A stretch of 64,000 nt of DNA from positions 1 to 64,000 of the forward strand of contig CABVRZ010000006.1 in assembly GCA_902500775.1 (NCBI GenBank). Reading direction: 5' to 3'. Below the pieces are notes generated by a model. That model was not told where the DNA came from. It saw only the letters and a program-made list of their open reading frames with translations, and did no database searches. Origin of the DNA: an uncultured Nitrospira sp. (GTDB lineage Bacteria; Nitrospirota; Nitrospiria; Nitrospirales; Nitrospiraceae). Position 1 is the first letter of the stretch. Each line of letters begins with the position of its first letter. The translations under genes were made by a program, and so were the position numbers. Below, piece by piece: positions 26,707-36,233 of the stretch.

Positions 26707-26752
26707 TGGTCGGGGCGAGAGGATTTGAACCTCCGACATCCTGCTCCCAAAA
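26707..26752 (-). repeat. attL: 46-bp copy of the tRNA-Pro 3' end
   Basis: Identical to 36188-36233. It contains the T-arm, the 3' anticodon stem and the encoded CCA of tRNA-Pro. After position 26752 the match to the tRNA stops, so this copy is not a functional tRNA. The integrase gene lies 245 bases inside this end. Confidence 0.9.
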
Positions 26753-26871
26753 CAGCTAAGTATGCACTTCCATGAAACACCTCGAAACCACTTCCTCCTG
26801 CTTGTAGTGCAGTGTTCATGATGTTTTCTCGTTCTTCCCCATCCTTGCCGTTTCACGTTGTTTCATGTAAA

Positions 26872-26893
26872 TTGTGACCCCAAGTGTGACCCC
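26872..26893. repeat. GTGACCCC direct repeats, possible integrase arm sites (left)
   Basis: Two copies of TGTGACCCC separated by 3 bases. The inverted equivalent occurs at 26951-26981, and a matching pair lies near the other end at 36122-36143. Repeats at both termini of an integrative element suggest integrase arm-type or excisionase sites. Confidence 0.5.
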
Positions 26894-26950
26894 AGAACTG
26901 TCTCGTCGGCATGCCCGGGCATGACAGGAGAACTGAGGAGCCACCGGGCT

Positions 26951-26981
26951 GGGGTCACACTTGGGGCCACAGCGGGTCACA
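26951..26981. repeat. Inverted copies of the GTGACCCC repeat before the integrase gene
   Basis: GGGGTCACAC and, after 13 bases, GGGTCACA run opposite to the pair at 26872. They lie immediately upstream of the integrase start and could also serve as an autoregulatory operator. Confidence 0.45.
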
Positions 26982-26997
26982 TTGGAAGATAGGCATC

Positions 26998-28305
26998 ATG
27001 CCGTTCACTGTTCGACAAATCGACGCGCTGAAGCCAAAGGAGCGTCGTTACGAAGTGCCGGAACCGGGGCGCACGGGGTTGTCCGTTCGGGTGTCACCAG
27101 GAGGCGCGAGAGCATGGGCGTTTCGGTATCGGTTTCACGGCGAACAGAAGCGCATGATCTTCGGCGGCTACCCAACTCTGGGCCTTGCCGATGCGCGGGT
27201 GAAACTAGCAGACGCCAAGAAACTCCTACGGGAAGGTCGTGATCCTGGCGCACTGCTGGCCGAAGAACGACACGCGCTCCGCACGGCGCCCACCATGGAA
27301 GACCTGGCCCATGACTATCTCACGCGCCACGCCGAAAAGACCATGCGCCCGACGACCGTGAAGGAAGATCGACGAATCTTGGATAAAGAGGTTCTCCCCG
27401 CCTGGCAACATCGGCTTGCGCGCGACATCATGCGGCGCGATGTGATGGCCCTCCTCAATGGTGTGGAGGATCGAGGCGTCTATGTGATGCGGAATCGAGT
27501 GGCGGGTGTCTTGTCGCGTGTCTTTCTCTATGCCCTGAATCAGGGGATGATCAATGGTTCTCCGGCGGTTCAGCTGCCCCGACTCCGGAAGATCCAAAAC
27601 AAGAAAGTTGAACAACCACGAACAAGGGTGCTCTCGCAAGATGAAATACGTTCATTCTGGCATGGGCTGAATCAGATCCCGCCGACCCGCTCCATGAAGG
27701 CCGCGCTACGGTGGTTGCTCGTGACTGGCCAGCGACGCGGGGAAACCGTTCTCGCTCAGCGTGCCCACATCGACGACGCGGCGCGGATCTGGCGTATTCC
27801 GCCGGAGAATGCCAAGACCGACCGTGAGCAACTGGTGCCACTTCCCCAGCTCGCGTTGGATCTGCTCGCAGAAATTGACGAGGTAAGGGTTCGCCCACAA
27901 CCAACCAGGCTCAACCGCAAAGATCGTAAACCGCACGATCCGGAGCCGAGCGCGTGGCTTTTCCCCAGTACACGCCATGGGCGACCTATTACACCAGCTG
28001 CCCTTACCTGTGCTCTTGTTCGACATCGGCATACCCTCGGCATTGGTGATGCAACCGTGCACGATCTCCGACGAACATTTGCCACCTGGCACGGCGAGAT
28101 AGGAACTCCACCGGAGATCTTGGCCTCGCTGCTGGGCCATGCGCCAAACACTATCACGAAACAAGTCTATGACCAGTCGCTCTTATTGGAACGACGACGA
28201 GACGCCATGGAGAAATGGTCAGTCTGGCTGTCACGACTACTCGCAGCCGAAGCGGCGGATAACGTCATTCCGCTCCGTGGGGTTGGGGTAGGATCACATC
28301 CATAA
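26998..28305 (+). CDS. int: Tyrosine integrase (P4-type, DUF4102 N-domain)
   Basis: 435 residues from the ATG at 26998. The N-terminal DUF4102 arm-binding domain begins FTVRQIDALKPKERRYEVPE and includes FGGYPTLGLADARVKLADAK. The catalytic residues are seen as Arg in VTGQRRGE, His-x-x-Arg in HDLRRTFATW, His in LLGHAPNT and the nucleophile Tyr in KQVYDQS. Complete and probably active. It should recombine at the 3' end of tRNA-Pro, whose partial copy lies just upstream. Two flanking GTGACCCC repeat groups may be its arm sites. Confidence 0.93.
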   Translation: MPFTVRQIDALKPKERRYEVPEPGRTGLSVRVSPGGARAWAFRYRFHGEQKRMIFGGYPTLGLADARVKLADAKKLLREGRDPGALLAEERHALRTAPTMEDLAHDYLTRHAEKTMRPTTVKEDRRILDKEVLPAWQHRLARDIMRRDVMALLNGVEDRGVYVMRNRVAGVLSRVFLYALNQGMINGSPAVQLPRLRKIQNKKVEQPRTRVLSQDEIRSFWHGLNQIPPTRSMKAALRWLLVTGQRRGETVLAQRAHIDDAARIWRIPPENAKTDREQLVPLPQLALDLLAEIDEVRVRPQPTRLNRKDRKPHDPEPSAWLFPSTRHGRPITPAALTCALVRHRHTLGIGDATVHDLRRTFATWHGEIGTPPEILASLLGHAPNTITKQVYDQSLLLERRRDAMEKWSVWLSRLLAAEAADNVIPLRGVGVGSHP

Positions 28306-28331
28306 GATCACGGTGGGTAAGAGGAGCAGCT

Positions 28332-34647: not shown

Positions 34648-34909
34648 CAGGCATTGTAAGGCGCACGGACTTCAGCTTGCCCACGTTCGGGCGTGGCGGC
34701 GACATAATGTTGCGCTGGTCAAAACGTTCTGGAATGAAGGTGCTGCTGTGAAAACGATCTGTGTCAGGCTCGATGTCAGTGAGGACTTTGTGGACCATTG
34801 TGTCAGGCAGAAGGTCTGCCCTGATGCAGGGCCAGCGGTCATACCGAGGAGATCGTATGGGCGAAATCAAAAGCGGAGACTCCGCGAACTTGTGGAAGTG
34901 CCAGGGTAA
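34631..34909 (+). CDS. Small basic protein, unknown
   Basis: 92 residues, rich in Arg and His. A segment GAAVKTICVRLDVSEDFVDH may be a helix-turn-helix. The name and role are unknown; it lies between the capsid module and the packaging-like gene. Confidence 0.5.
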   Translation: MARLFSRHCKAHGLQLAHVRAWRRHNVALVKTFWNEGAAVKTICVRLDVSEDFVDHCVRQKVCPDAGPAVIPRRSYGRNQKRRLRELVEVPG

Positions 34910-35023
34910 GTAAAGATACCAGGGTCCTCCCTGGCAATACGCATACACGGGTAAGCAAGAGCGCGTAGATTCACTAGTTGGAGATCTAAAATCAAGGTTG
35001 TTGGTTGATGGTTGTTAGTTCGT

Positions 35024-35539
35024 ATGGCACAGGTACGTAGATCGCTCAGTCTTTATGCGGAGCACCTCGGACTTTCAAAGGAAGGCGCTAGGAAAAGGTT
35101 GATTCGCGTCGGTGTTGATTACCTCAATCCCTTCGATTTCAAGGAGGCGGATCGCCGTATTCAGGAAGCCCGTCATGCTGATCGTGAACCGTTCACAAAA
35201 GCAGTCTATGGAAGTCTAACGGACGATGAGCCTCTTGACGAAGCAACAAAAAAAGATCCGAAGTTCATCGAGAGTCAAGCGCGCCGCGAGATGTTCAAGG
35301 CGAATCTGACTGAATTGGAATATCTCGAGCAGGTCGGCACGCTCATCAAGGCGGAAGATGTGGACCGGGAATGGTTCGAATTGGCGAGACTGGTGCGTGA
35401 CACCATGCTGAACATTCCCGCGCGAATCGCTGATCAACTCGCCCACGAAACGGATCAGCGGAAAGTCCAAGATCTTTTGGAACAAGAGATATACCAGGCT
35501 CTTGAGACCATCTGCGCGAACGGAGAGCAGCCCGCCTAG
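35024..35539 (+). CDS. Terminase small-subunit-like protein
   Basis: 171 residues from the ATG at 35024; a TTG at 35012 is possible. N-terminal helix-turn-helix-like region (SLYAEHLGLSKEGARKRLIR), then a linker, then a helical C-terminal domain with DREWFELARLVRDTMLNIPA, RIADQLAHETDQRKVQDLLE and EIYQALETI. The latter resembles Nu1/DUF1441-type small terminase subunits. Satellites of the PICI type carry their own small subunit to redirect a helper's large terminase, which would fit the absence of a large-subunit gene here. Confidence 0.65.
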   Translation: MAQVRRSLSLYAEHLGLSKEGARKRLIRVGVDYLNPFDFKEADRRIQEARHADREPFTKAVYGSLTDDEPLDEATKKDPKFIESQARREMFKANLTELEYLEQVGTLIKAEDVDREWFELARLVRDTMLNIPARIADQLAHETDQRKVQDLLEQEIYQALETICANGEQPA

Positions 35540-35920
35540 ACGTTTTCCACTTCGGGCGGTGTTCGAGGTGGGGCGGGAACTGCTCCACGCAAAGCGGGCG
35601 CTGCCGCATGGGGAGTTTCAGCGCATGGTCGAGCAAGAGCTGCCGTTTTCTCATAAGACTGCTCATTGTTACATGGCGATTGCCAAATCTTCTCATTTAC
35701 AAAAGTCTACCATTGGTAGAGTTTTGCCTTCCTCATGGAGAACACTCGCGACTCTTAAGCGCTTGAGGTTTTGATCTTTGATGCAGCGGCCGCAGCAGGG
35801 AAAATTCATCCAGAAATGACGCGGGCGGATGCCGAGGCCTTGCTGCCACCAAAGCCCTTAGCGCCGGTGACTGCCCTCGCGTGGATTGAACCACCGCTGT
35901 CTTCCGTGCAAATTTCGTAA
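35502..35920 (+). pseudogene. DUF3102-like gene broken by a frameshift
   Basis: The first frame gives VGRELLHAKRALPHGEFQRM, VEQELPFSHKTAHCYMAIA and LPSSWRTLATL, close to the DUF3102 pattern, then stops at 35774. A second frame continues with ALEVLIFDAAAAAGKIHPEM and TRADAEALLPP, the expected remainder, to a TAA at 35918. A one- or two-base indel near 35752-35758 would rejoin them. It overlaps the end of the terminase-like gene. DUF3102 proteins are common in phages and plasmids; role unclear. Confidence 0.65.
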
Positions 35921-36121
35921 TGCACTTCTTGTTGTAACGCAGTTCTCCAGCTTTCCGCTCCGTCCGCCCTCTAATCTCTACTGCTCAGTTCACTAGATCG
36001 GCGTCCTTCGCTTGCTTCGCGTAGGCAGCGAGAGGCCGAGGTTGGAAGGACAGATTTTCTTTTTTGGTGCGACTTCGGCTAGCGAGAGATGAGGAAAGAA
36101 GTAAAACAAAATCGTCTAGTC

Positions 36122-36143
36122 TGTGACCCCAATTGTGACCCAA
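36122..36143. repeat. GTGACCCC direct repeats, possible integrase arm sites (right)
   Basis: TGTGACCCCAATTGTGACCC, nearly the same as the pair at 26872-26893, located 45 bases inside the right attachment repeat. Confidence 0.5.
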
Positions 36144-36187
36144 TACTATTTTTGTTAAGCGATTAATTATTTAACTTGTGGATTTTA

Positions 36188-36233
36188 TTGGTCGGGGCGA
36201 GAGGATTTGAACCTCCGACATCCTGCTCCCAAA
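36188..36233 (-). repeat. attR: 46-bp copy within intact tRNA-Pro
   Basis: Identical to 26707-26752. It forms the 3' end of the intact tRNA, so the element left the gene functional on this side. Confidence 0.9.

Follow-up and report, generated by a model that had tools for sequence, protein, structure and literature searches.

How can a mobile element of about 9.5 kb carry the gene of a major capsid protein (MCP) without a portal, a protease, a large terminase subunit (TerL) or a tail: as a satellite that takes these parts from a helper phage, or as the remainder of a prophage? This question is raised by an integrated element in a stretch of 64,000 nucleotides (hereafter the window) from an uncultured Nitrospira sp., whose source assembly is a draft of 79 contigs, with the element located on contig C6. 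Judged from its sequence and from that of its relatives, the element is probably a phage satellite, whose DNA of about 9 kb would be packaged in a small shell made with its own MCP, while portal, protease, TerL and tail would be borrowed.

First of all, the element is bounded by two direct att repeats (49 of 50 nt identical) spaced 9,482 bp apart, and the right repeat makes up the 3′ portion of an intact tRNA-Pro(tgg) gene (36189-36265, minus strand). The preliminary description of this DNA, made from the letters alone, had proposed a 9.5-kb tRNA-Pro element with integrase, AlpA-like regulator, Toprim/DUF3987 replication protein, MCP and small terminase subunit (TerS), and all of these are confirmed by the att repeats and by Pfam and PHROGs matches (Table 1). 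All named genes lie on the plus strand, on which only the open reading frames (ORFs) of integrase, primase and MCP exceed 200 aa. The MCP has one copy in the genome, and its gene overlaps the preceding helix-turn-helix (HTH) gene and the following 92-aa gene by 4 bases each. In the element, neither the ORF list nor Pfam and PHROGs showed a gene for portal, protease, TerL or tail; the earlier statement that tail, portal and TerL are not visible holds, as no remaining plus-strand ORF fits them. That is to say, the element has the features of a phage satellite: integrase, regulator, own replication and att boundaries, without a complete virion gene set.

The same design recurs elsewhere. The MCP was searched in 296-396 Nitrospirota genomes and in public contigs, the survey covering Nitrospirota genomes and viral contigs. 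Portal-less loci with a related MCP were found at L015, L020-L027, L030, L124, L148, L149, L150 and on the viral contig L123, and the scan of public contigs with the single MCP protein gave one locus only, L015 (Nitrospira ACE_NIT10), whose MCP is 80.3% identical to the window MCP. The att spacings are 9496 bp (L015), 8613 bp (L020), 9396 bp (L021), 9413 bp (L022), 9156 bp (L023), 9389 bp (L024), 9809 bp (L025), 9090 bp (L026), 9226 bp (L027), 9099 bp (L030), 9380 bp (L124) and 8383 bp (L150), so that the 13 att-bounded MCP elements, window included, measure 8.4-9.8 kb (mean 9,226 bp, standard deviation 378 bp); the att candidates of L148 (21 nt) and L149 (16 nt) are uncertain and were excluded from these statistics. 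The fetched regions were about 20 kb and much longer elements would escape them; the tight size clustering is nevertheless notable. The att repeats are mostly 25-65 nt, eight tRNA types serve as insertion sites (Pro, Leu, Thr, Phe, Arg, Glu, Ser and Met), and the replication genes vary among DUF3987 primase, PriCT primase, DnaB-like/primase-helicase, AAA_25 and DnaD/initiator-like types. Complete relatives, with head and tail genes between the same markers, were sought, since these would speak for a deleted prophage and not for the satellite proposed earlier; the relatives recovered were again 8.4-9.8 kb long and portal-less. Because 12 further att-paired, portal-less Nitrospirota elements of like length exist, the element is not a one-off deleted prophage. 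Related MCPs on Roseomonas and Klebsiella plasmids belong to full phages with portal and tails, and were rejected as satellites.

The absence of portal and protease is best seen by comparison with the phages. A portal profile, built from three phage portals and iterated, matched 74 loci among viral contigs and phages and 0 of the 16 portal-less elements. The phage portal is located at most about 500 bp upstream of the MCP gene, with a TerL of gpA type upstream of the portal, and the phage loci without a portal match are nearly all interrupted there by a contig end. In satellites, the slot just upstream of the MCP is often filled by the HTH gene, and it is this gene that stands in the phage-portal slot of the window element. 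Similarly, each of the 79 phage MCPs of full length carries a fused N-terminal protease domain, as against 1 of 16 satellite MCPs (L026), the other 15 being without it. The region from the end of the protease to the beginning of the mature domain is 174-232 aa long in phages (linker included), and in the main-clade satellite MCPs about 80-116 aa precede the mature domain, a figure that depends on the chosen start codons and on the position of the true cleavage sites. As for large genes in general, nearly all ORFs above 350 aa in the elements are integrase, replication protein, TerL, MCP, tape measure or regulator; the exceptions are in L124, namely a 437-aa ORF without a match beside a primase-like ORF, and a 568-aa recombinase-like ORF outside the scan, and this element may contain a portal that belongs to another family altogether.

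The MCP itself has been maintained. Between the window and L015, dN (nonsynonymous divergence) of the MCP is 0.144 and dS (synonymous divergence) is 1.23 (dN/dS about 0.12); dN is low relative to dS, therefore the capsid gene is under purifying selection. For the HTH gene of the same pair, dN is 0.151 and dS 0.753. In the MCP tree (89 rows, quick method, SH-aLRT support), the satellite MCPs form a main clade of nine (support 94) and a clade of four of TerL type, with L022, L026 and L150 outside these clades. The tree has five switches between satellite MCPs and phage MCPs, at least four of them forced by supported branches, as against 15 with shuffled labels; L150, L023 and L123 have long branches, and some placements are unsure.

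Around the MCP, the packaging and tail modules differ from element to element. MCP and TerS are present in the window element and in L023 (9.2 kb, without TerL); MCP, TerS and gpA-type TerL in L022 and L025 (phrog_15, 6.6e-221 and 6.6e-257); TerL and MCP in L027, L030, L148 and L149, the TerL of L027 and L030 being of phrog_2/9 type; MCP with tape measure or tail assembly proteins in L015, L024 and L123; and the protease-MCP fusion in L026. The tape measure genes of these portal-less elements are located at L015:5917-7887, L024:3460-5427 and L123:10269-12770, with other tail assembly proteins also in L024 and L123. A satellite with a tape measure protein might set the tail length. The MCP and HTH of the window are closest to those of L015, and yet the downstream genes differ (TerS in the window, tape measure in L015), which indicates that modules have been exchanged.

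From these results, the following mechanism can be proposed for the satellite. The element would integrate into tRNA-Pro and be excised by its own integrase and AlpA, and would replicate from an iteron origin by its own primase-helicase. Upon infection by a helper tailed phage, its protease-less HK97 MCP, with the apparently shorter N-terminal (delta-like) region, would form a small shell; portal, protease, TerL and tail are absent from the element, therefore a helper would have to provide them, the protease acting in maturation. The satellite TerS proteins (the HTH protein and/or the later TerS) would steer packaging to the satellite DNA, and the length of the element group (about 9.2 kb) would be fixed by the small capsid. 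It has been predicted that tailed capsids of triangulation number T=3 hold 11.8 kb (8.1-17.1) (PMC7762592), and by this published relation of T number to genome length, a length of about 9.2 kb fits a capsid of the T=3 class. A more far-reaching reading, to which we give only limited credence, is an undescribed class of Nitrospirota satellites of about 9.2 kb and of several origins, which would assemble T=3-class shells of protease-less MCP on a borrowed portal, whose packaging and tail parts would be spread over co-resident, complementing satellites, and some of which would set tail length.

Several observations weigh against a functional satellite of this kind. The structure prediction of the MCP was unusable for lack of depth (pLDDT 39), and because it failed, the fold call rests on profile matches. 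The att repeats of L022 (20 nt) and L124 (16 nt) are short. In the window copy the last gene is frameshifted and TerL is absent, so this copy may be partly eroded. We take the gene to be DUF3102-like from recognition of the family, and not from a database match. Finally, a helper prophage in the same genome, which had been suggested as a check, was not found: there is no portal of the A5 family and none of PF04860 above the cut-off. A PF04860 match (E 0.009) was discarded, as it did not reach the curated cut-off and contained a stop, a weak phrog_2 match on contig C7 is PhoH-like by eye and not a terminase, and PF03354 (TerL) gave no match in the profile search. Because the genome has no portal of the tested families, the helper is probably exogenous.

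The same genome does contain a second element, on contig C19 (L158, G000:C19:13300-33200). It is 10,501 bp long (8170-18717), lies in tRNA-Arg(acg) between 47-nt repeats, and has integrase, DnaB-like helicase, TerS and TerL, with neither an MCP nor a portal of the tested families; its TerS is 68.5% identical to that of the window. It may be conjectured that the C6 and C19 elements complement each other. The tyrosine-integrase regions of C42, C72, C46, C4, C1, C35 and C34 showed no satellite-length att pair in the fetched stretches, a control that is weak because some of those contigs are short. Of 12 other genomes with satellites, only two, G017 and G241, contain a portal of the tested families, in each case within a complete phage region. 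G241 holds both the 9.1-kb L026 with its protease-MCP fusion and the complete phage region L029, whose MCP stands closest to that of L026 in the tree, and the two are possibly a satellite-helper pair; in G017, the satellite L025 (MCP, TerS, TerL) accompanies the complete phage region L028 with portal.

With regard to alternatives, a strict variant of the satellite explanation is conceivable, though we hold it with some reserve, in which the MCP replaces the helper capsid protein at some positions only (e.g., pentamers) and so shrinks the helper capsid. It has been reported that in SaPIbov5 the satellite has a single capsid homologue of this sort, Ccm, which shares 24% identity with the helper capsid protein, has a shortened delta domain, occupies pentamers, cannot form capsids alone and redirects assembly (PMC8569155, PMC5052747). 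The apparently shorter N-terminal region of the satellite MCPs and the lack of both portal and protease genes agree with this variant. However, several relatives carry TerL and L026 keeps the protease fusion, which suggests more self-sufficiency than in SaPIbov5, and because the main clade of satellite MCPs stands apart from the phage MCPs sampled, a close capsid protein partner in a helper is not evident.

A second alternative concerns the window copy alone and is compatible with the satellite explanation of the family. Its recent inactivation, with TerL lost between TerS and the frameshifted DUF3102-like gene, is a tentative proposal: TerL directly follows TerS in L022, L025 and L158, and in the window the frameshifted gene takes this place. 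On the other hand, L023 likewise has MCP and TerS without TerL, L015 is without both TerS and TerL, and the frameshift could be a sequencing error. The earlier argument against heavy decay stands for the att sites and the genes through TerS, which are intact; the end of the element shows signs of decay.

It is improbable that the main role of the capsid gene is to act against phages (as a decoy by which helper assembly is poisoned) or to form a protein compartment, with the element moving in some other way. No resident helper was found, and a lone portal-less capsid gene could act as a dominant negative; against this, the MCP is accompanied by TerS, in relatives also by TerL and tape measure genes, and the tight lengths point to DNA packaging. 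Least probable of all is a deletion-decayed prophage, i.e., a temperate phage reduced to integrase, replication gene and MCP by the loss of its portal, terminase and tail genes. Phage genes are indeed present (MCP, TerS and integrase), the DUF3102-like gene has a frameshift, and G017 and G241 hold full phage regions with related MCPs; such decay, however, would hardly give 13 elements of one size, all portal-less, with different tRNA and replication genes, an MCP under purifying selection that is precisely without the fused protease, and, in the window element, an HTH gene in the phage-portal slot with a 4-bp overlap.

The remaining features of the satellite are as follows. The replication protein also matches phrog_2249 (DNA primase) and phrog_2373 (DNA helicase), and the iteron array downstream is a candidate replication origin from its repeat pattern, with 6 iteron matches against 0.46 expected and 4 against 0.14 expected (repeats D2, I1 and I3). 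The HTH gene is kept before the MCP in 8 elements, and its protein has weak matches upstream of TerL in the phages L052 and L057; a second, weaker HTH homologue is present in G199 (L125, G199:C1:1608020-1608220). For the 92-aa protein after the MCP, the AlphaFold2 model (pLDDT 73) has weak Foldseek matches to DUF7210 proteins (viral models), none with E <0.001, and the protein perhaps has a DUF7210-like fold; GINS-like Foldseek matches in the PDB are weak and of hint value only. As for the insertion site, its tRNA-Pro/rdgB side is common to many genomes of the genus and the match ends at the att side; the joined-flank search gave no exact empty site, because the left flank is not shared. Repeats of the TGTGACCCCA type, direct and inverted, are found at 26873-26971, close to where the integrase lies, and a similar motif is located at 36122-36140 near the right end; these are possible arm-type integrase sites. 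Just left of attL there is a transposase-like gene (25408-26266), apparently split in two frames and presumably IS630-like, as judged by eye.

Table 1. Features of the integrated element in the window.
Feature	Position	Strand	Match or remark
attL	26706..26755	no strand	50-nt copy of tRNA-Pro 3′ end; 49/50 match to 36188-36237
Tyrosine integrase with Arm-DNA-bind_3 domain	26998..28305	+	PF00589 4.8e-19; phrog_1 4.5e-68
ORF, 195 aa	28332..28919	+	no Pfam/PHROGs family above cut-off
AlpA-like excisionase/regulator	28996..29307	+	PF05930 9.1e-14; phrog_2790 2.4e-13
Replication protein, Toprim primase and DUF3987 helicase-like domains	29548..31980	+	PF13148 2.3e-96; PF13362 4.4e-16
ORF, 174 aa, doubtful gene, overlaps iterons	31971..32495	+	no family above cut-off
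Iteron array TTTTGCGGATATTGCG	32022..32250	no strand	direct, then inverted copies flanking A/T-rich stretch
HTH protein, N-terminus akin to TerS	32492..32920	+	phrog_57 4.7e-7
HK97-fold MCP, 386 aa, without protease domain	32917..34077	+	PF05065 9.5e-27; phrog_617 3.4e-47
92-aa protein after MCP	34074..34352	+	kept in 7 elements
o93, Cys-rich ORF, 93 aa	34366..34647	+	homologues in L015, L022, L158; phmmer 3.7e-12, 5.6e-12, 6.1e-10
o92b, 92-aa ORF	34631..34909	+	homologue in L015, phmmer 1.8e-27
TerS	35024..35539	+	phrog_57 5.1e-23
DUF3102-like gene, with a frameshift near 35760 as compared with L015	35555..35920	+	68% nucleotide identity to L015 8436-8751
attR	36188..36237	no strand	within intact tRNA-Pro gene

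In the open-access literature searched, no description of Nitrospira satellites or of lone-capsid satellites of this kind was found. These elements add the Nitrospirota, a group of nitrite oxidisers and their relatives, to the range of phage satellites, and represent a recurrent design between the classical and the capsid-forming phage-inducible chromosomal islands (PICIs), with a capsid protein and neither portal nor protease. If the satellite reading is true, the MCP is separable from its portal and protease partners and has been repeatedly reused with foreign ones. The elements would then be a natural set for testing the N-terminal region of the MCP against capsid size, including shells of tailed phages near T=3, which one study called missing (PMC7762592).

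Compared with known systems, the phage-inducible chromosomal minimalist island (PICMI) is likewise an integrative satellite of very small size that has integrase and replication genes, and differs in being without capsid and packaging genes and in using concatemers in full-size capsids (PMC10803314). The Streptomyces satellites MulchRoom and MiniFlayer also encode capsid and terminase, while portal and scaffold are present and primases absent (PMC10690885). With P4-like satellites and classical PICIs, the window element shares integrase, regulator, primase-helicase, site-specific integration, small genome and, for some PICIs, TerS; in those satellites the helper capsid is resized by Sid or Cpm, and no capsid protein is encoded (PMC12409344), except in the Ccm-bearing S. 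aureus pathogenicity islands (SaPIs). Sid, psu, delta and epsilon are not named among the Pfam/PHROGs matches of the window element, nor are ppi, ptiM and Stl, and no search was aimed at any of them. Capsid-forming PICIs are listed with MCP, protease, portal, connectors, TerS, TerL and HNH (PMC10690885; reviewed in PMC11389934); measured against that list, the window element likewise has its own HK97-type MCP and a packaging gene, and it has no portal, protease or connectors, only TerS without TerL or HNH, and a different gene order. The preliminary description had regarded a lone capsid gene as unusual for a satellite; a precedent exists in Ccm of SaPIbov5 (PMC8569155). SaPIbov5 and the cos-type SaPIs with Ccm share with the Nitrospirota elements a lone HK97-fold capsid homologue without portal or protease, site-specific integration and self-replication. 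The Nitrospirota elements differ in phylum, gene order and size (9.2 kb), and their MCP is accompanied by an HTH/TerS-like gene, in many cases also by TerS, TerL or tape measure genes. Among the nearest precedents, the Ccm satellites are the closest in function, and the capsid-forming PICIs are also near.

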